Source: a virus
Direction: 5' to 3' (one strand)
IMG/VR virus record: IMGVR_UViG_3300017730_000058
Coordinates: 1 to 29,029 of that record
DNA length: 29,029 nt
A program made the position numbers and the translations under genes. The notes below the pieces were generated by a model, which searched no databases, was not told where the DNA came from, and saw nothing but the letters and a program-made list of their open reading frames with translations. Shown in pieces: positions 6,988-16,980 of this stretch (the stretch's first letter is position 1; each line of letters begins with the position of its first letter).

Positions 6988-7266
6988 TTATTTTAAGCGT
7001 GTAACAGGTCTTAAAGTAAGTAAAGAAATTATCTTTGGAGTTATATTTATGTTTTCTTTATTAGGCAAGTATATTGCTTTTACTATTTTAGGGTCACGGT
7101 CTTTTACGTAGCTTAATCTATTTTCTATGTCTTTCATTAGCTCTTGTATTGTGTCACCTACGGCGCTTGTATAAGCAAATGCTTTTTCTGTTTCGTATTG
7201 TATTTCACAGTGGTAGTTAAAGTTGTGATTTACATTAAGTTTGTCCAAATGAGTTTGTTTGCTCAT
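6988..7266 (-). CDS. hypothetical protein
   Basis: I place the start at the ATG at 7266, because GGAGAG lies four bases upstream. A longer form from 7278 would have a poorer site. The product is 92 residues, beginning MSKQTHLDKLNVNHNF. It has an alpha/beta look (NYHCEIQYETEKAFAYTS, then DTIQELMKDIENRLSYV), somewhat like small phage proteins annotated only as hypothetical. It overlaps the 54-residue gene upstream. It is the last gene before the 63-base gap that precedes the head block. No function recognised. Confidence 0.6.
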   Translation of the reverse strand: MSKQTHLDKLNVNHNFNYHCEIQYETEKAFAYTSAVGDTIQELMKDIENRLSYVKDRDPKIVKAIYLPNKENINITPKIISLLTLRPVTRLK

Positions 7267-7399
7267 ATATCTCTCCATTAATTCTTGCTATTGCATCTAT
7301 TAATTCCATCACTATTAATTCATCGTGACCTGCTATATCAACTAATTCATTAAACTCTTCATATGATACTATTGTTACTATGTATTCAAATGGTTCCAT
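7235..7399 (-). CDS. 54-residue acidic hypothetical protein
   Basis: ATG at 7399 to TAA at 7237-7235. The product is acidic and mostly helical: MEPFEYIVTIVSYEEFNELV, then AGHDELIVMELIDAIARING. The start lies inside the zinc-ribbon gene upstream and the end inside the next gene, forming a chain of three overlapping small genes. There is no strong Shine-Dalgarno, so it would depend on translational coupling. Coding potential is suggested by its balanced composition and by the overlaps, not by any family match. Confidence 0.5.
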   Translation of the reverse strand: MEPFEYIVTIVSYEEFNELVDIAGHDELIVMELIDAIARINGEIYEQTNSFGQT

Positions 7400-7536
7400 C
7401 TTGGATATTTCTCACTGCAATCTTGACAACTCCATATATGCCCATTATTATTATCTTGCCTATTAACCATGGTTACTAATTTACGGCAAATACCACATTT
7501 AAAACTATCTATGTAATTCTCAATCGGTTCGCTCAC
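7378..7536 (-). CDS. 52-residue zinc-ribbon protein (GTG start)
   Basis: A GTG at 7536 opens a 52-residue frame with two CxxC knuckles: FKCGICRKLV and WSCQDCSEKY, spaced by about 22 residues, the spacing of a small zinc ribbon. Starting instead at the ATG at about 7475 would lose the first knuckle, so GTG is preferred. GGGG lies a few bases upstream. The start overlaps the end of the cyclotransferase gene in another frame. Such mini zinc ribbons are common in phages. Function unknown. Confidence 0.6.
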   Translation of the reverse strand: MSEPIENYIDSFKCGICRKLVTMVNRQDNNNGHIWSCQDCSEKYPRWNHLNT

Positions 7537-8098
7537 TAATTACCCCACTCATAATACAATCTACAATAAATGCTTCTTCATCTAAAGTATTTAAGTTTAT
7601 CTTGCTACGTTGTTTTACTAAGTCCATATAAATTTTATTAGTTGGTGCTCTTCTGCCGTCAAAGAATCTCATATGAAACACTAATTTATCTGGTGTGTCA
7701 ATATACAATCTATCATCTATCATTACACTATATTTTCTGCTTACATACTCTTTCCAAAACCCGCTTTTAATCCTAGTCAGCTTATAGTAATTATTTTTAA
7801 ATTTATCTTTATCTAATGTCACATAATAGCTCATATCTAATTTACTATCATATATCCTTTTATAAAACTTACCCTCTCCTTCTAGTGCATCTATAGCTGT
7901 TAGCATCTTATCATCTATTTCATATACCTCTCCATATACTTTCCTGGCAGTTATATCTTCAAACATTAAAGGAAATCCATGAGTAATATCAAACAGCGCA
8001 TATCCGTGAATTACTTCATACCTTATAAAGTTAGCATTTCTTAAATAAAAATGGTTTTTAGCACCCTTTTTGAGCGTGCCATATACAAATAATTTCAT
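7520..8098 (-). CDS. gamma-glutamylcyclotransferase-like (AIG2/GGCT fold) with C-terminal extension
   Basis: The product is 192 residues. Residues 1-95 match the GGCT/AIG2 fold: MKLFVYGTLKKG substrate loop, Asn at 15, KVYGEVYEI strand, and AIDALEGEGKFYKR carrying the expected catalytic acid (E73) and the Y/R that follow it. These enzymes cleave gamma-glutamyl amides to release 5-oxoproline, and in some cases make or trim gamma-glutamyl conjugates. About 90 further residues follow that I do not recognise. The gene starts with TAATG overlap on the glutamine amidotransferase gene, and the amidoligase lies just beyond it, so it likely acts on the same amide chemistry. The substrate is unknown. 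Confidence 0.85.
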   Translation of the reverse strand: MKLFVYGTLKKGAKNHFYLRNANFIRYEVIHGYALFDITHGFPLMFEDITARKVYGEVYEIDDKMLTAIDALEGEGKFYKRIYDSKLDMSYYVTLDKDKFKNNYYKLTRIKSGFWKEYVSRKYSVMIDDRLYIDTPDKLVFHMRFFDGRRAPTNKIYMDLVKQRSKINLNTLDEEAFIVDCIMSGVISERTD

Positions 8099-8991
8099 TA
8101 CTTAACCTTTCTAATTGTTGAACCATCGTTTGCTTTAAACATTTTTAGTTGATCACTATATGAAAATCTAGGAACAAATCTTTCAACTGTCTCTGATTTA
8201 CTTTCATAAGCCCCAATCTTTTTGTTATAAAAAGCAAATTTCTTTGGCTTTGGTTTTTTTATCGTGATTTCTTTAGTATCTATTTTGAGTGTCTTAGTAT
8301 TAATCCGAACCATTGTATTTGGCTTTATAGTAATTGCATTTTTATAATCAACTTTAAAACCTGATTTAACAATAGCATCTGTGCTACCATAAGCATATCC
8401 ATCTATTTCGGGAATATAATACATCTGAATTGGATTATTAGCTTTAACCATATATACATATTCTGGTTTTTCTAAGTCTGCCCATACTATAGCTACACGA
8501 CCACTTACTTTTGGCAATCTATTATTAACAAATTCACTCATACTGCCTGAAGTTTCATATAGTCTAAATATGGCTTCACTATCAACTTGGGCATATCTTT
8601 CCATAGCATACTTATTAAACAGCTCTTTATGGTTATGTATTGAGCCATTATGAGTACCTATAGTTTGACCTGTCCGTATAGGGTGGTTATTTTTATTAAT
8701 AGTTGGTGAGCCAAGTGTCGCATATCTAGTGTGACCCATTAATGTAGTTACTCCGTTGTAAATTAAATCAATGTTATCTTGGGCATCTGAATCTTCAAAG
8801 AATTTATATGCATCTTTTGCTTTTTTACAAATAGTATAATCTCCGAACTTATCTATTAAAGCAAATCCTGTAGCGTGACCACCTCTGATATCTGCTTCGT
8901 ATAACATTTTTACAAAAGACTTTGAGACCCGATTAAGGGCCTCGTTGTCTCTGTCTTTTTCTTTTAAAATAATTCCTGCTAATCCGCACAT
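8098..8991 (-). CDS. class II glutamine amidotransferase (Ntn hydrolase)
   Basis: The product is 297 residues and begins MCGLAG, so Cys2 becomes the N-terminal nucleophile after Met removal. Further family motifs are RGGHATG (36-42), GHTRYATLG (86-94), GTHNGSIHN (112-120) and VDSEA (136-140). These are the glutaminase signatures shared by PurF, GlmS and AsnB, which release ammonia from glutamine. There is no phosphoribosyl, SIS or ATP-PPase synthetase domain. After about residue 215 there is only a basic extension. Ammonia would therefore be passed to another protein, most simply the adjacent amidoligase. It has a good ribosome site (AGAGAGGAG) and starts two bases after the amidoligase stop. 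Confidence 0.92.
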   Translation of the reverse strand: MCGLAGIILKEKDRDNEALNRVSKSFVKMLYEADIRGGHATGFALIDKFGDYTICKKAKDAYKFFEDSDAQDNIDLIYNGVTTLMGHTRYATLGSPTINKNNHPIRTGQTIGTHNGSIHNHKELFNKYAMERYAQVDSEAIFRLYETSGSMSEFVNNRLPKVSGRVAIVWADLEKPEYVYMVKANNPIQMYYIPEIDGYAYGSTDAIVKSGFKVDYKNAITIKPNTMVRINTKTLKIDTKEITIKKPKPKKFAFYNKKIGAYESKSETVERFVPRFSYSDQLKMFKANDGSTIRKVK

Positions 8992-8993
8992 AA

Positions 8994-10019
8994 TTATGCT
9001 CCTCTCTGTAGTTGCTCTTTAATTGTATTAAAATACTTAGTTCCTCTTCGGCTTGCGTTCATCGCTGAAGTATTTAATTCTGCAAATCTTTTTGTGATCA
9101 CTTTATTAGCGAATTTTATATCTTCACATCTATCTTTACTACCGATAAAACCGATTGCTTTTCTAAGGTGAAACATACCCGCTTCATTAGTCTGAACATT
9201 AGTAAAGTTTACACGACTGTTCTCTTTGCTAACAACTACAAAAGCCTGAGTAAATACTATCCACGCCCAAAGTTTTTCAAAACTTAAAGTTCCCTGGTGG
9301 TATCTAAATTCAACAGAACCTCTGGTCCAGATGTTTTTTAGATTTAAACCGCAGTATCTACTTCCTTGAGTTTCTCTTGGGTTGTTACTAGTATTCACTC
9401 CTGCACCTGAATTTTCATATTTTCTGTCACAATCAATTTTTAAATTATCATCTATTTTTTTTGTGATTGATTTAACAGATATTTCTTGTCCCCACCATTG
9501 TCCGAATACAACTCTTGCAGGCTTAGTCCACCAACCTCGGCCAATTTTCTTTAATCTTGAAGGAGCAATTAAGCGGTAGATAATATGTTCATATTTAACT
9601 ACTGTTTTGATTAAAGTATTAAGGAAAGATGTTACAACTTCTTTACTTTTTAACATTACGTCAGTAACATCGTGGTGAACGTGAGTACCACATGTCTTAT
9701 TTACTTTACAATCTAACTCATTTAAAACTCTTAAAACTGTTTTAAGTTGTTCTTTACCATTTTGACCATATAACTTAGGAGATACAAGCTCGTTGTTTCC
9801 GTAGTGAGTATATCCAAGACTTAAAGACTTAACCGTGCAATCTGTAGTCATTTTCCAGTGCTCTACTGTTTCGTGACCATAACCTTCTAATTTACAAGTT
9901 ATATCGTGATTGTTATTTAACGCCTCTACAACAGAACTCTTTGAAACTCCTCTTGGAATTAATAGTTCTAGTTCTACACCAAACGCTAACTCATTATTAA
10001 AATGTCCTTTTTTATTCAT
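8994..10019 (-). CDS. amidoligase of the COOH-NH2 ligase superfamily (Amidoligase_2-like)
   Basis: The product is 341 residues. Motifs seen are LAFGVELELL (11-20) with the Mg/ATP-binding glutamates E16/E18, a WKMTTDCTV segment with D60, ELVSPKLYG (77-85), KTCGTHVHHD (108-117), and late in the protein RYCGLNL and RGSVEFRYHQGTL. This is the glutamine-synthetase/glutamate-cysteine-ligase-type amidoligase family that couples a carboxylate to an amine with ATP. The family is described in phage and bacterial operons together with GATase II and AIG2-type cyclotransferases, exactly as here. It is the first gene downstream of a strong promoter, with ribosome site AAGGGAAG. The substrate (peptide, nucleotide base or small molecule) cannot be read from the sequence. 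Confidence 0.9.
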   Translation of the reverse strand: MNKKGHFNNELAFGVELELLIPRGVSKSSVVEALNNNHDITCKLEGYGHETVEHWKMTTDCTVKSLSLGYTHYGNNELVSPKLYGQNGKEQLKTVLRVLNELDCKVNKTCGTHVHHDVTDVMLKSKEVVTSFLNTLIKTVVKYEHIIYRLIAPSRLKKIGRGWWTKPARVVFGQWWGQEISVKSITKKIDDNLKIDCDRKYENSGAGVNTSNNPRETQGSRYCGLNLKNIWTRGSVEFRYHQGTLSFEKLWAWIVFTQAFVVVSKENSRVNFTNVQTNEAGMFHLRKAIGFIGSKDRCEDIKFANKVITKRFAELNTSAMNASRRGTKYFNTIKEQLQRGA

Positions 10020-10084
10020 TTTGACTTCCCTTCGCTTTTTGTTAATTTCGCTTTTTTTATTAAACAGTTAATCATCGTGGTATA

Positions 10085-10113
10085 ATATTACTATGAAAAA
10101 CAATACGTGTAAA
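10085..10113 (-). promoter_or_regulatory. sigma70-type promoter P1 for the amidoligase operon
   Basis: On the minus strand: -35 TTTACA (10113-10108), 17-base spacer, -10 TAATAT (10090-10085). Expected start is near 10078, giving a leader of about 60 bases to the amidoligase ATG. The -35 box lies in one arm of a dyad GTGTAAA-7-TTTACAC, so a repressor or activator could act here. It shares an extended element with P2 at 16.45 kb. Confidence 0.75.
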
Positions 10114-10133
10114 GTCTTTTTTTACACTTTTTT
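10109..10133 (-). repeat. 25-base upstream element shared with promoter P2 (copy 1)
   Basis: On the minus strand, AAAAAAGTGTAAAAAAA then GACTTTAC. The copy at 16450-16474 is identical in 23 of 25 positions (GTG becomes GTC, and GAC becomes CAC). Both copies sit at the same distance from their -10 boxes and include the first five bases of the -35 box. It looks like a regulator site or an A-tract UP-like element. Confidence 0.75.
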
Positions 10134-10142
10134 AACTCTTTG

Positions 10143-11015
10143 TTAAGTGTTTACTATATTTTTTACATAATCTTCTATGTTTTTTACTGGTTTATAGTCT
10201 AATAATGTTTCTGCAGCTGTTAAATCAGCTAATGTAATATCATATTCCCCTTTTCTAGTTGGAATATATTGTCTTGGATAGTTTTTACCGAACATATCGG
10301 CTATCTCATTAATAGAATAGTTTTTTCCTCTACCTAATTCAAATACGGGAGTTTTAAAAGTGCTTTCTAATTTTATTATTAGTTCTTTCATACTAATTAA
10401 TCCACTTACAATATCTTCAATATGAGTAAAGTCTCTGCGTTGCTCTCCCGTGCCTACTATTGTTAAAGGTTTATTATCTCTAAATTGCTTTTCAAATATA
10501 CCAATTACTGTAGACCATTTCCCACTTTCTACTTGATATGGTCCATATACATTATAAAATCTACAAATCATGGTTTTTAATTTCTTATGCTTAGAGTATA
10601 ATTTGCACATTTGCTCTCCACTATGTTTTGACCAGGCATAAGGGCTTTCATATATTCCGCTATGAAAAGAGCTAGAACCTGAATAAATTACAGGAATGTT
10701 ATTATCTGCAGCGGTTTCAAGTAAGTTTAATGTGCTTAAAAAATTATTTTTAATTGTTGGTTTCGGGTCTTTAATGGAAGGCTGTATTCTTGAATATGCA
10801 GCTAAGTGATAAACTAAATCAATTTTATCTTCAATATACCAATAGCCTTCTGCTAAGTCTTGGTTTAAATAAGTGACTCCAGGCAAATGATTTTCTTCTT
10901 TCCCAATATAATAACTATCATAAGAGTAAATATTATGTTTTTTAGAATCTTTTAAAAGCCCTTTAATTAAGTTTGTCCCGACAAAGCCAGTCCCACCAGT
11001 GACTAATATATTCAT
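10143..11015 (-). CDS. NAD-dependent NDP-sugar epimerase/dehydratase (extended SDR)
   Basis: The product is 290 residues. It has the Rossmann glycine motif GGTGFVG (7-13), an NxDL pattern near 51-54, LAAYSRIQPS (71-80), catalytic S near 113-115 (YSGSSS), and YAWSK (126-130), the Y-x3-K of extended short-chain dehydrogenases. RFYNVYGP is the family's downstream motif. It closely resembles UDP-glucose 4-epimerase and related enzymes, acting on an NDP-sugar in the cytoplasm. It overlaps the glycosyltransferase stop (ATGA) behind GGAGG, so the pair is co-translated and probably supplies the sugar donor. The specific sugar is unknown. It is the last gene before P1. Confidence 0.9.
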   Translation of the reverse strand: MNILVTGGTGFVGTNLIKGLLKDSKKHNIYSYDSYYIGKEENHLPGVTYLNQDLAEGYWYIEDKIDLVYHLAAYSRIQPSIKDPKPTIKNNFLSTLNLLETAADNNIPVIYSGSSSFHSGIYESPYAWSKHSGEQMCKLYSKHKKLKTMICRFYNVYGPYQVESGKWSTVIGIFEKQFRDNKPLTIVGTGEQRRDFTHIEDIVSGLISMKELIIKLESTFKTPVFELGRGKNYSINEIADMFGKNYPRQYIPTRKGEYDITLADLTAAETLLDYKPVKNIEDYVKNIVNT

Positions 11016-11848
11016 TTATCCTCCAGTTTTATTAGTTTCATTCCATAGTTATTTATTTTATCAGGTATAATTAAACCTTTTTTCTTTTTTAATTTATTAT
11101 GTTTAAATGGTTTATAATTTACTTGGTGCTGCCATCTTCCCCATTTCCAGCTAACTTTTGTAACATCTGGGTGTTGATCAACTAATGATTGTGCCATTTT
11201 TAATCTTCCATCATCTATCTCATATAAATCTTCTGTATTACCACCTGTCATTGTCATTGTAGTTGTCTTATCGCAAAGAAATGCTTGAAATAATATTGTA
11301 CACCATCCATCTTTTAATGCTCTAAGCGACAAATCAGTGTCTTCATTATATCTACCACGCCATCTATAAGGTATGTCGTTTTGAATTAGTATACAAGAAT
11401 ACACTCTTGTGTTTTGTCTATAAGCTCTGAGCTTTTCTTTACGTGGAATAAACATAAAATACTCAAAACCTGATATTGCAACATTTTCATATCTATCAAC
11501 AAAGTCTTCAGCGCATCTAAAAATAGTTCCAGATGATACGGGAACTGGCAAATTATTGTTTAATCTATAAAAATGCATTAAATTATCATCCATTATCCAA
11601 TGTCTTTTTGCTCCTATACTCATAGAGTGATGCCACACCCAATTTCTTGCTGGTATTGATCCGCTTCCTAAATTACTAAATGGTAAGACAAGTATTTTTT
11701 GAGAGTTAATTACATTAGCATATTGTTTATATTCTTGAGGCTCTATTACAATGTGATATGGAACATTCATTTTTTCTAAAGCCTTACTTGTTTTTCTTGT
11801 CTCCCACCTGCCTTTAGAAATTATATAAATTGGATATTTAGAGTTCAT
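11012..11848 (-). CDS. TET-associated-glycosyltransferase-like (TAGT) GT-A enzyme
   Basis: The product is 278 residues. The N-terminus YPIYIISKGRWETRKTSKAL, then PYHIVIEPQE, ILVLPFSNLGSGSIPARNW and RHWIMDDNLMHF (D87/D88, a DxD-like metal site) form the GT-A pattern of the TAGT family, predicted from comparative genomics to glycosylate oxidised bases in phage DNA. NEDTDLSLRAL later is the acidic acceptor-site motif of GT-A enzymes. No TET/JBP dioxygenase or base hydroxymethylase is visible in this window, so the acceptor is uncertain: DNA base, protein or host glycan. The epimerase follows with ATGA overlap. Confidence 0.8.
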   Translation of the reverse strand: MNSKYPIYIISKGRWETRKTSKALEKMNVPYHIVIEPQEYKQYANVINSQKILVLPFSNLGSGSIPARNWVWHHSMSIGAKRHWIMDDNLMHFYRLNNNLPVPVSSGTIFRCAEDFVDRYENVAISGFEYFMFIPRKEKLRAYRQNTRVYSCILIQNDIPYRWRGRYNEDTDLSLRALKDGWCTILFQAFLCDKTTTMTMTGGNTEDLYEIDDGRLKMAQSLVDQHPDVTKVSWKWGRWQHQVNYKPFKHNKLKKKKGLIIPDKINNYGMKLIKLEDK

Positions 11849-12111
11849 TACTCTTCCTCATCAATATATCTTTTATTCATAAACCTAGTTATTTTTACTT
11901 CAGGAAACCAAATACTTTTTGTATTCGGAGTTATATTTTGATTTACAAGCTCTGCGAATTTAGCAACATCTGCTTCGCTTTCAAAGTTTATTTTTAATGA
12001 AAACTCAGCTGTAAGATTTTGCATTTTAAATTCAGGCATATCTTGCCATTCTTGCCTCCAGGATTCTAATTGCTCTAAATCCCCAAATAAAGATTCTTGA
12101 TTATCACTCAT
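11848..12111 (-). CDS. conserved small phage protein next to the glycosyltransferase
   Basis: The product is 87 residues with ribosome site AGGAG. The N-terminal third is acidic and Trp-rich (WRQEWQDMPEF). The rest, LKINFESEADVAKFAELV then TKSIWFPEVKITRF, is an alpha/beta unit. I have a sense of the 'FxxxxDxxxFAxLxxQxxTxxTKSIWFP' pattern from many uncultured phages, often beside DNA-modification or ParB-like genes, but I cannot name a domain. It shares TAATG with the glycosyltransferase start, so it may be a partner of that enzyme. Confidence 0.7.
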   Translation of the reverse strand: MSDNQESLFGDLEQLESWRQEWQDMPEFKMQNLTAEFSLKINFESEADVAKFAELVNQNITPNTKSIWFPEVKITRFMNKRYIDEEE

Positions 12112-12508
12112 TATTATACTCCTTTATTTTTTGATCAAGTTCTTGTCTTGTTATTTTACCATCCCTTAACTCTAATCCCCACTCCCAAAGTTTGTTAATT
12201 AATCCACTTGGCGTTTCATCTCTTTTACTCTTAATATGTTTTTCATCAAATTTTTCTATTCTATTTGCCATTAAAATACGTTCTATTATTTGCATTTTTG
12301 GTAGCCTTCCAGCTAATTGCCCATTTGGTAAATCACATGAATTAAAAATTTCAGACCAAGATTTTTTTATAGTTTCTAAAGAATACTTCATTAAGATACT
12401 ACAAAATTGATTAAATAACAACTGATTATTTCCTTTTATTTCTAAAGTGTCAAATAAGTCGTTTATATAGTGACTAGCTTCCTGTGAACTGCATTTCTTC
12501 TCGCTCAT
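12104..12508 (-). CDS. helical hypothetical protein, possibly helicase-loader-like
   Basis: The product is 134 residues, all helical in appearance: ASHYINDLFDTLEI, then FNQFCSILMKYSLETIKKSW and LPKMQIIERILMANRI. The first part has the spacing of small phage helicase-loader or loader-inhibitor domains, and it directly follows the replication-initiator-like gene (35-base overlap). That makes a role in loading a replicative helicase conceivable. This is inference from position and helix pattern only. The ribosome site is AAGGG. Confidence 0.6.
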   Translation of the reverse strand: MSEKKCSSQEASHYINDLFDTLEIKGNNQLLFNQFCSILMKYSLETIKKSWSEIFNSCDLPNGQLAGRLPKMQIIERILMANRIEKFDEKHIKSKRDETPSGLINKLWEWGLELRDGKITRQELDQKIKEYNNE

Positions 12509-13106
12509 TCTTTCCCTTCTTGTCGTTTATTTTCCACTCTTTATTATTTTTAACCCAAGTTAATAGCCTTCTTGGTATCTCAAAAGTCTGTTGTAATTCA
12601 AACCTCATCTTTGTATTTGAGTTGTTTTTTTCTGTCCAAAACTCTATAAAATTACTTGTTTCATCGTTTGAATACTTTTTTTCTTTTATAACATTATTAA
12701 CTTTTTCTATAAATTTATCTTTCCTTTTATCTATATCTTTATCTTTAAGAGTTCCTGGAACTGTTTGGATATAGTTATCAAGACCTTTTTCTTTAAGTCT
12801 TTTAATAACAGACATATGTGGTTTACTATTTTCTTTTAATAATCCATATTGGTACTCTACAAAACTAGATATAAAGTACTGGTCTTCACTTATCCTATGC
12901 ATTTTATCTCTTATTAACTTTGGTAAATCTTCATCTGAATCTATTTTTTCACCTATAAAAAACGATGCGGCTTCCCAATCGCCATCTAAAATTCCAGCGT
13001 GATCACATTTTGTTATTATATATACCCAAATTAATTTACCTCTTGGTTCCAATTTTCTGAACCAACTTTTGTCCCATATTTTTGTATCAATAAAGCGTTT
13101 AGCCAT
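12474..13106 (-). CDS. replication initiator-like protein (winged-helix N-terminus)
   Basis: The product is 210 residues. Residues 1-110 (MAKRFIDTKIWDKSWFRKL, IWVYIITKCDHAGI, ASFFIGEKID, FISSFVEYQYG) follow the pattern of phage DnaD/replication-protein-O-like winged-helix domains that bind the replication origin. A charged linker follows. The C-terminus, FIEFWTEKNN then FELQQTFEIPRRLLTWVKNN, is the typical end of this family, where it may contact the helicase loader. It sits in the replication block with a strong ribosome site (AAGGAG). No origin could be located with confidence nearby. Confidence 0.75.
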   Translation of the reverse strand: MAKRFIDTKIWDKSWFRKLEPRGKLIWVYIITKCDHAGILDGDWEAASFFIGEKIDSDEDLPKLIRDKMHRISEDQYFISSFVEYQYGLLKENSKPHMSVIKRLKEKGLDNYIQTVPGTLKDKDIDKRKDKFIEKVNNVIKEKKYSNDETSNFIEFWTEKNNSNTKMRFELQQTFEIPRRLLTWVKNNKEWKINDKKGKNEREEMQFTGS

Positions 13107-15344: not shown

Positions 15345-15965
15345 TTAAAACCTTGGGTTTATAAAATCCGTCCAGTGATTAACTAATTTTTTCTGTCCGT
15401 TCTTATTATGATCACCAACTTGAATATTAGTTGTCCATCTTTTATTAATTCGTTTATTTTTCATATACATTACAATAGGACTTATTAATCCATTAGGGTG
15501 TTGAATTTCTGTAACAAAAGCCACCCAGTCTGCTCTTGAACGCTTAACATCAAAACGGATAGAATTACTGCTGTCATATTGTTGAGAGTATTTTATTTGT
15601 AATGTTATAAATCTACTTTTATTGCCATCTCGAATCTCTACTATTCTGTCAACACCAGAATCATCAAGCCTAGATTTAGCAGTTGAAAAGCCTCTTTTTA
15701 ATAAATCTGCATCTGTATACAACTCGCCTACTTCACCACTTACTAAAGAGCTTTGTATAAAGTAATCTGAAGATAATTCTTTATCCCAAAGTTTATTCCA
15801 GCCATTGCTCCAACTTCTTAATTCTTTTTGCATCTGAAGTTCTATCTGAGCCCTAACAGTTTTTGCAATATCTTTGTTTTTTGTTTTAAGGCTTTTTGCT
15901 TTTCTTTTTCCATCTACATTAACACTAAGATAATAAGTACCATTGTTTTTATATAGTGAGCTCAT
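15345..15965 (-). CDS. integrase-type arm DNA-binding domain fused to a PD-(D/E)XK nuclease-like domain
   Basis: The product is 206 residues. Residues 1-50 (SLYKNNGTYYLSVNVDGK, RKAKSLKTKNKDIAKT) look like the arm-type DNA-binding domain of tyrosine recombinases. No recombinase catalytic domain follows. Instead residues 77-130 give GEVGE (E81), a LLKRGF strand, SGVDRIVEI with D106, and TLQIKYS with Q123-x-K125, the pattern of restriction-endonuclease-like (PD-(D/E)XK) enzymes such as Holliday-junction-resolvase relatives. That suggests a sequence-directed nuclease or recombination enzyme. Activity is not proven, since the third acidic position is Gln. It has a good ribosome site and overlaps the upstream gene. 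Confidence 0.7.
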   Translation of the reverse strand: MSSLYKNNGTYYLSVNVDGKRKAKSLKTKNKDIAKTVRAQIELQMQKELRSWSNGWNKLWDKELSSDYFIQSSLVSGEVGELYTDADLLKRGFSTAKSRLDDSGVDRIVEIRDGNKSRFITLQIKYSQQYDSSNSIRFDVKRSRADWVAFVTEIQHPNGLISPIVMYMKNKRINKRWTTNIQVGDHNKNGQKKLVNHWTDFINPRF

Positions 15966-16479: not shown

Positions 16480-16980
16480 TTAACTAAGTCTATTGTAAAT
16501 AAAAAGGTCTGGTCGAGGTCTATCTGTCCAGGCGGAGTTAGGTTTTATTTTCTCTGTTATATAATATAATAAGTATGATTCTACAACGCTTTGTGATTTA
16601 TATGCATCTGGCATACATTTAGGTCTTTGAGTTAATAAGTCTTGCGAATCATTAAATATAGATAACTCGTGTTTGTTATTATCGCACCACCTAATAACTT
16701 GCTCTGTTTTATGAGTCCTGTCACGCCACTCTGTATATATTTTACAAAGTTCTAGTGAGTGTTGTATAAGCCAGTTAAAGTTAGCTGAAGATGTTCTTGT
16801 CCATATTGTCATAGGGTGATTTACATACGCTTTTTTATAGGGTATATCTTTTGTATAACCTAGCTCGTGATATGCGGTACAAAGCATTTGGGCTGACTCT
16901 AAAATCATCTTGACTACATGTTTATCATGCATCATTTGTGCAGCAACTTTTGGTTTATTATCTAAGAAAAAAATATTCAT
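16480..16980 (-). CDS. Pyr_excise-like phage protein
   Basis: The product is 166 residues, MNIFFLDNKPKVAAQMMHDK then VVKMILESAQMLCTAYHELG. The start 'MN-x-F-x-x-D-x-x-P ... D-K-H-x-x-K-M-x-x-E-x-x-Q-M-L' resembles the family annotated as pyrimidine-dimer DNA glycosylase (Pyr_excise). Later NHPMTIWTRTSSANFNWLI and the C-terminal KPNSAWTDRPRPDLF recall the rest of that phage family. Enzymatic activity is not proven by the motifs I can see. It is transcribed from its own promoter P3 with ribosome site AAGGAG and begins the early block. Confidence 0.6.
   Translation of the reverse strand: MNIFFLDNKPKVAAQMMHDKHVVKMILESAQMLCTAYHELGYTKDIPYKKAYVNHPMTIWTRTSSANFNWLIQHSLELCKIYTEWRDRTHKTEQVIRWCDNNKHELSIFNDSQDLLTQRPKCMPDAYKSQSVVESYLLYYITEKIKPNSAWTDRPRPDLFIYNRLS

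Follow-up and report, generated by a model that had tools for sequence, protein, structure and literature searches.

Described systems and the window

Phage genes for amidoligases, class II glutaminases (GATases) and gamma-glutamyl cyclotransferases (GGCTs) have been annotated for more than 15 years without a known substrate. Papers citing Iyer et al. (2009) credit that study with describing the trio and with proposing a cell-wall or superinfection role for the phiEco32 version. The trio is documented in UFV-P2/LUZ24-like phages and in Arthrobacter phages, and an amidoligase with a GATase in OM43 phages. Here we analyze such a cassette in the IMG/VR virus record IMGVR_UViG_3300017730_000058, all 29,029 bp of which we call the window; the head, tail, and terminase genes of this uncultured phage are of tailed-phage type and lie on the minus strand. 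Its Amidoligase_2, GATase and GGCT genes are adjacent, as in the phage systems of the type described by Iyer et al. (2009). A prediction made earlier from this DNA alone had called the trio already described and its product unknown, in agreement with the cultured-phage versions we found and with what citing papers relate of Iyer et al. (2009).

How does the window differ from these systems? The phiEco32/LUZ24-like phages (UFV-P2 ORFs 21-29, phiIBB-PAA2) also hold a PF12224 amidoligase, a class II GATase and an AIG2/GGCT protein in one region. They have in addition a second COOH-NH2 ligase (PF14395) and an ATP-grasp enzyme, and their GATase is longer, whereas the window has three genes and, fused to its GGCT, a small domain that we call the partner domain. 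The PF14395 ligase and the ATP-grasp enzyme are present in UFV-P2 and MW202615; neither occurs among the large open reading frames (ORFs) scanned around the window cassette. The Arthrobacter phages Salgado, Laroye, and Ottawa (the first two of cluster AL) have adjacent GGCT-like, amidoligase, and class II GATase genes as well, but in the order GGCT-amidoligase-GATase and at 25-30% identity, with the partner domain and the conserved GATase tail undetected. In Bacillus phage 031MP004, Geobacillus phage GR1, and Porphyromonas phages, the partner has a short gene of its own next to or near the amidoligase (weak in GR1) and, unlike in the window, no GATase adjoins the ligase; a GGCT lies near the amidoligase in 031MP004 and GR1. 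The trio as such is therefore known, and the cassette is a real and conserved variant form with one apparently uncatalogued component. What looks new is this component, the partner domain of about 65 amino acids, together with an exchangeable DNA-modification slot beside a stable cassette.

Three enzymes in one cassette

The cassette reads from 10019 to 7520 on the minus strand, beginning with the Amidoligase_2 gene, followed by the stand-alone class II GATase and then the AIG2/GGACT-type GGCT. Its features are as follows:

8994-10019, minus strand: amidoligase, 341 amino acids, Amidoligase_2 with a glutamine-synthetase/GCS-like fold (PF12224, E 2e-26)
8098-8991, minus strand: class II (N-terminal nucleophile, Ntn) glutaminase, 297 amino acids, without a synthetase or isomerase domain (PF13522 GATase_6, E 4e-17)
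8101-8127, minus strand: C-terminal glutaminase tail DGSTIRKVK (DGS or DGT at or beside the C-terminus in clade members)
7742-8098, minus strand: AIG2/GGACT-type gamma-glutamyl(amine) cyclotransferase core, residues 1-119 (PF06094, E 4e-20, 73 bits)
7535-7732, minus strand: partner domain of about 65 amino acids fused to the GGCT, residues ~123-188 (profile homology to stand-alone proteins)
10113-10085, minus strand: promoter-like site TTTACA-17-TAATAT, 5' of the ligase (scores 9/12, not above chance)

Ligase and glutaminase genes are separated by 2 nucleotides, and glutaminase and GGCT genes overlap by one (TAATG). Much of the original prediction stands: the three ORFs (8994-10019, 8098-8991, and 7520-8098) are consecutive and nearly touching, Pfam families confirm all three identities, and the glutaminase lacks a synthetase domain, the GATase domain being its sole Pfam match. 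The catalytic residues that it named are present and are kept, not lost, across homologues. E16, E18, D60, E77, H113, H115, R155, E237, and R239 of the ligase are invariant in 90 of 90 homologues, C2, R89, N115, G116, and D137 of the glutaminase in 29 of 29, and G7 and E73 of the GGCT in 57 of 57. The claim that the cassette is promoter-driven is not supported, as 28 sigma-70-like sites in 7000-12600 against 29.8 expected from shuffles is the chance level. The three steps that the prediction proposed (release of ammonia, bond formation, trimming) would make a coherent model. It overlooked a fourth component, namely the domain at the C-terminus of the GGCT with its stand-alone homologues, and one of its proposed targets, the DNA base, is disfavored by the evidence presented below.

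The ligase scores 93.7 bits against PF12224 (cut-off 22) and covers positions 2-245 of the 245 in the profile. Its sequence gave no significant match to any solved structure. The AlphaFold2 (AF2) model, with a predicted local distance difference test (pLDDT) value of 92, has its best PDB fold matches in YbdK/GCS2 and glutamine synthetases (E 6e-5 to 1e-3), and the ligase family has the fold class and the ExE...HxH...ExR residues in common with this superfamily. By sequence and modeled fold, it is a predicted ATP-dependent carboxylate-amine ligase of the GCS/glutamine-synthetase superfamily.

The nearest solved relative of the glutaminase is the glutaminase domain of GlmS (E 1e-7). Several known identities were considered and rejected. 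GlmS, AsnB, and PurF synthetases have a fused synthetase or isomerase domain that is missing here. An EgtC-type gamma-glutamyl amidohydrolase would be expected to score far above the 21 bits obtained with TIGR03442, whose cut-off is 219. The MurT/GatD pair of peptidoglycan amidation combines the Mur-ligase-like MurT with a class I GATase, while the GATase here is of class II and the ligase is GS/GCS-like. The C-terminal tail of the glutaminase has the clade consensus DGSTI[RK]K and is not seen in the outlying class II glutaminases of three loci (L014, L053, and L058); it is plausible as a possible docking motif.

The GGCT fold matches PH0828 and human GGACT (E 1e-8 to 3e-6). With GGACT and the AIG2-like gamma-glutamylamine cyclotransferases, it shares the fold, the VYGTL loop, and the catalytic glutamate, E73 aligning with E82 of human GGACT, a position located through an E82Q mutant chain that differs from the wild type there. 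It departs from these enzymes in its added C-terminal partner domain, and the whole ORF (7520-8098, 192 amino acids) is longer than the GGACT domain alone.

A partner domain at the end of the cyclotransferase

AF2 models the fused partner domain as a beta-hairpin followed by three helices, with pLDDT values of 88-97 as far as residue 190. Many phages and prophages that lack a GATase encode its counterpart as a stand-alone small protein, mostly of 62-120 amino acids, directly or closely 3' of the ligase. A hidden Markov model (HMM) made from 40 stand-alone sequences only, all without a GGCT core, matches the equivalent C-terminal stretch of GGCTs related to the window protein, with E-values down to 8e-9 and no hits to shuffled decoys, and profile-profile comparison (hhalign) of the stand-alone proteins with the GGCT C-termini gave 97%. 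A 9-seed partner HMM did not match the window GGCT directly; homology is shown via its relatives and the profile-profile comparison. Across an alignment of 36 sequences R164 is invariant, and M158 and F177 are nearly so.

No Pfam, PHROGs or NCBIfam model covers the domain, and its copies are consequently labeled 'hypothetical protein'. Unannotated copies occur in Porphyromonas phage018a (E 1.5e-14), Bacillus phage 031MP004 (gp41, 6e-8), and a gut phage (2.6e-15), and a weak one in Geobacillus phage GR1 (E 0.01); none was detected in the LUZ24-like phiIBB-PAA2, and a tblastn search of named phages with two partner proteins returned 0 and 1 matches. In the PDB, no significant sequence or sequence-profile match was obtained, and fold searches identified no known fold. 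A Pup- or LysW-like tagging role for the small partner was rejected on the grounds that it has no conserved C-terminal Glu or Gln, that Arg, Phe, and Leu are the residues it keeps nearly invariant, and that the domain is fused inside the GGCT; such a role survives only within the speculative acceptor or carrier reading given below. In the most economical view, the partner is a conserved adaptor-like domain recruited by phage amidoligase systems. In a flavobacterial family represented by 197 genomes, the three best partner matches adjoin an amidoligase. As a separate observation, the stand-alone partner gene of flavobacterial chromosomal copies (loci L128-L155) is often convergent with a gene of about 486 amino acids.

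Distribution and linkage

A profile scan yielded at least 79 viral and 31 cellular amidoligase loci; with those collected earlier, they form at least 82 groups at 90% identity. Group counts here and below are among the matches listed, and since many contigs are fragments, absences are less certain than presences. Core GGCT and partner domain were counted with separate profiles. Within three same-strand ORFs of an amidoligase lie 25 of 26 GATase homologues, 42 of 48 GGCTs, and 47 of 51 partner domains, against 319 of 1337 ORFs overall. Of the 82 listed amidoligase groups, 47 have a partner domain nearby and 42 have a GGCT, far above background. The gene-neighborhood statistics that the original prediction had proposed as a check thus place linkage well beyond chance.

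The ligase-GATase-GGCT arrangement belongs to a single clade of 24 amidoligase rows (98 in the Shimodaira-Hasegawa-like approximate likelihood ratio test, SH-aLRT), in which the gene order is fixed and a few members have other genes between GATase and GGCT. The divergences of the three cassette proteins are correlated (r 0.76-0.89), to which shared phylogeny contributes. Outside the clade, the GATase is mostly absent, and many loci consist of ligase and partner, with or without GGCT, so the core works without a glutaminase. Most economically, the recurrent core is ligase plus partner (plus GGCT), the glutaminase is a clade-specific addition, and partner and GGCT became fused in the clade of the window. 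This shows which proteins to purify together, and gp40-gp41-gp44 of Bacillus phage 031MP004 and gp97-99 of Arthrobacter phage Salgado are tractable models.

Proposed mechanism and alternatives

What could such a set of proteins do? The reading we prefer, to which we give a probability of roughly 0.45, is a ligase-cyclotransferase amide or gamma-glutamyl system with a peptide or metabolite of the host as its target. The ligase would join a carboxylate to an amine and, by analogy with GCS and GmaS, the carboxylate would probably be the gamma-carboxylate of a glutamyl unit. A gamma-glutamyl-type bond is the simplest reading because a GCS/GS fold is partnered with a gamma-glutamyl cyclotransferase. 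The cyclotransferase would later take off the gamma-glutamyl group as 5-oxoproline, the partner domain may serve as an adaptor holding ligase, cyclotransferase or acceptor together, and the glutaminase, added in the clade of the window, would feed ammonia from glutamine or cleave gamma-glutamyl groups. Phage DNA is, we guess, a less likely acceptor than a small metabolite or a peptide precursor of the host cell envelope; the benefit, equally a guess, might be the blocking of competing phages or the evasion of host defense.

Several observations weigh against this proposal. The template-modeling (TM) scores of the structural matches to the ligase are low, about 0.3-0.4, and our search of the literature on PF12224 enzymes found no characterized member, substrate or product. 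In many groups, ligase and partner domain are flanked by no GGCT, so a cycle of putting on and taking off is not universal. The other flavobacterial partner copies inspected are chromosomal and stand-alone with no amidoligase nearby, so the domain is not dedicated to this chemistry, and an exclusive association with amidoligases is ruled out. Finally, a glutaminase is a more natural companion for a ligase that uses ammonia than for one that makes gamma-glutamyl bonds, and these two readings are at odds.

The alternative that survives best, though we consider it somewhat unlikely, is plain amidation of the envelope. Ammonia from the glutaminase would be used by the ligase to place a primary amide on a carboxylate of a peptidoglycan precursor (meso-diaminopimelate or D-Glu), comparable to the action of MurT/GatD or AsnB/LtsA; lysis timing would be altered or superinfection blocked, and the GGCT would recycle gamma-glutamyl by-products. 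The glutaminase is indeed closest to GlmS-type ammonia donors and is inseparable from the ligase in its clade, and the ligase occurs in phages of both Gram-positive and Gram-negative hosts. The glutaminase is absent, however, from most amidoligase loci, and no recognized envelope-synthesis gene adjoins the cassette. GGCT chemistry requires a free alpha-amine on the gamma-glutamyl unit, which the D-Glu of the peptidoglycan stem does not have, so an intact stem should not be a substrate for a GGCT; were the envelope the target, the enzyme would have to work on precursors or released pieces. In favor of a target in the wall is the proposal, credited by citing papers to Iyer et al. (2009), that the phiEco32 version modifies the wall against superinfection.

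Could the glutaminase-fold protein remove gamma-Glu instead of supplying ammonia? The cassette would then protect a small amine metabolite or defense signal by gamma-glutamylation, which we regard as unlikely. Enzymes of these classes are paired in butirosin biosynthesis, with the ligase BtrJ and the cyclotransferase BtrG, and in the ergothioneine pathway, with the ligase EgtA and the Ntn amidohydrolase EgtC. The GGCT of the window is closest to gamma-glutamylamine cyclotransferases, and its glutaminase matches the EgtC model weakly (E 1e-4). The GlmS model fits far better (4e-17), two distinct removers of gamma-Glu would be redundant, and no biosynthetic partner genes lie nearby.

About as doubtful is the proposal that the partner is dedicated to an amidoligase system widespread among phages, serving the ligase as acceptor, carrier or substrate-presenting protein from which the cyclotransferase would release the product. 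If true, this would be a previously undescribed machinery for amide transfer assisted by a small protein; the clade of the window would have fused the partner to the cyclotransferase and acquired a source of ammonia.

An exchangeable slot upstream and other neighbors

Two genes of the window occupy the slot 5' of the cassette:

11012-11848, minus strand: TAGT-type hydroxymethylcytosine (hmC) glycosyltransferase (PF20691, E 5e-46)
10143-11015, minus strand: NAD-dependent nucleotide-sugar epimerase/dehydratase (PF01370, E 3e-39; phrog_540)

The TAGT is about 50% identical to Aeromonas phage proteins annotated 'beta-glucosyl-HMC-alpha-glucosyltransferase' and is probably a neighbor outside the cassette proper; despite its presence, the 29-kb record has no dCMP hydroxymethylase-like gene. 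Across the clade, the slot holds a TAGT with or without the epimerase, a thymidylate synthase (TS)-fold protein with a dUTPase and DUF6378, a C5-cytosine methylase with a second methyltransferase, or an N4/N6 methylase. That second methyltransferase resembles a PHROG named tRNA methyltransferase, so the slot genes need not all act on DNA. The slot looks like a hotspot for anti-restriction modules beside a stable cassette and provides a natural series with which to separate anti-restriction functions from the role of the cassette.

Does the cassette take part in DNA hypermodification, working with the adjacent TAGT to add or trim an amide or gamma-glutamyl group on modified bases or on the sugars they carry? 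This is the least probable of the alternatives: the module just upstream is always of DNA-modification or deoxynucleoside triphosphate (dNTP) type in the 16 clade loci whose upstream flank is readable on the same strand, 9 of 10 TAGTs among the matches listed lie within three ORFs of an amidoligase, and the TS-like slot protein is closest to T4 dCMP hydroxymethylase with its Asp retained, but TAGT, TS-like, and C5-methylase genes are mutually exclusive across 21 contigs, C5-methylases show no overall enrichment near amidoligases among the matches listed (p = 0.26), and a shared hotspot accounts for the pattern. Because the amidoligase tree implies at least five exchanges of the module beside an unchanged cassette, a role in building one particular DNA base is less likely, which disfavors the phage DNA base as the target.

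The TS-fold slot protein has Asp where a PDB variant of the T4 enzyme has Asn, a position that we take to be D179. TS-fold proteins with this dCMP-hydroxymethylase-type Asp are encoded at L021:4809-5504, L028:5185-5889, L034:5199-5894, and L005:3-584; the residue was compared directly with T4 for L021 and judged by the same motif for the other three. Genes for dUTPase and DUF6378 precede the TS-fold gene in L021, L028, and L034, and L021 also has a dCMP deaminase. Gene sets of this type are candidates for a compact hmC pathway in phages of about 30 kb.

A neighborhood of the same kind as the window cassette is found in the phage-derived island Tn6164 of Clostridium difficile, where Orf20-24 encode an N4/N6 DNA methylase, a hypothetical protein, an amidoligase, an AIG2/GGCT protein, and a phage terminase (PMC3485107). 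The PADLOC models of known defense systems gave no match. A phage accessory protein at 15345-15965 of the window has a weak match, just below the Pfam cut-off, to the restriction-endonuclease-like DUF4365. Further along, at 16480-16980, lies a pyrimidine-dimer-glycosylase-like gene (PF03013), which adjoins the cassette in some relatives (L020:5397-5912; also L022 and L030) and which we read as a mobile repair or modification gene.

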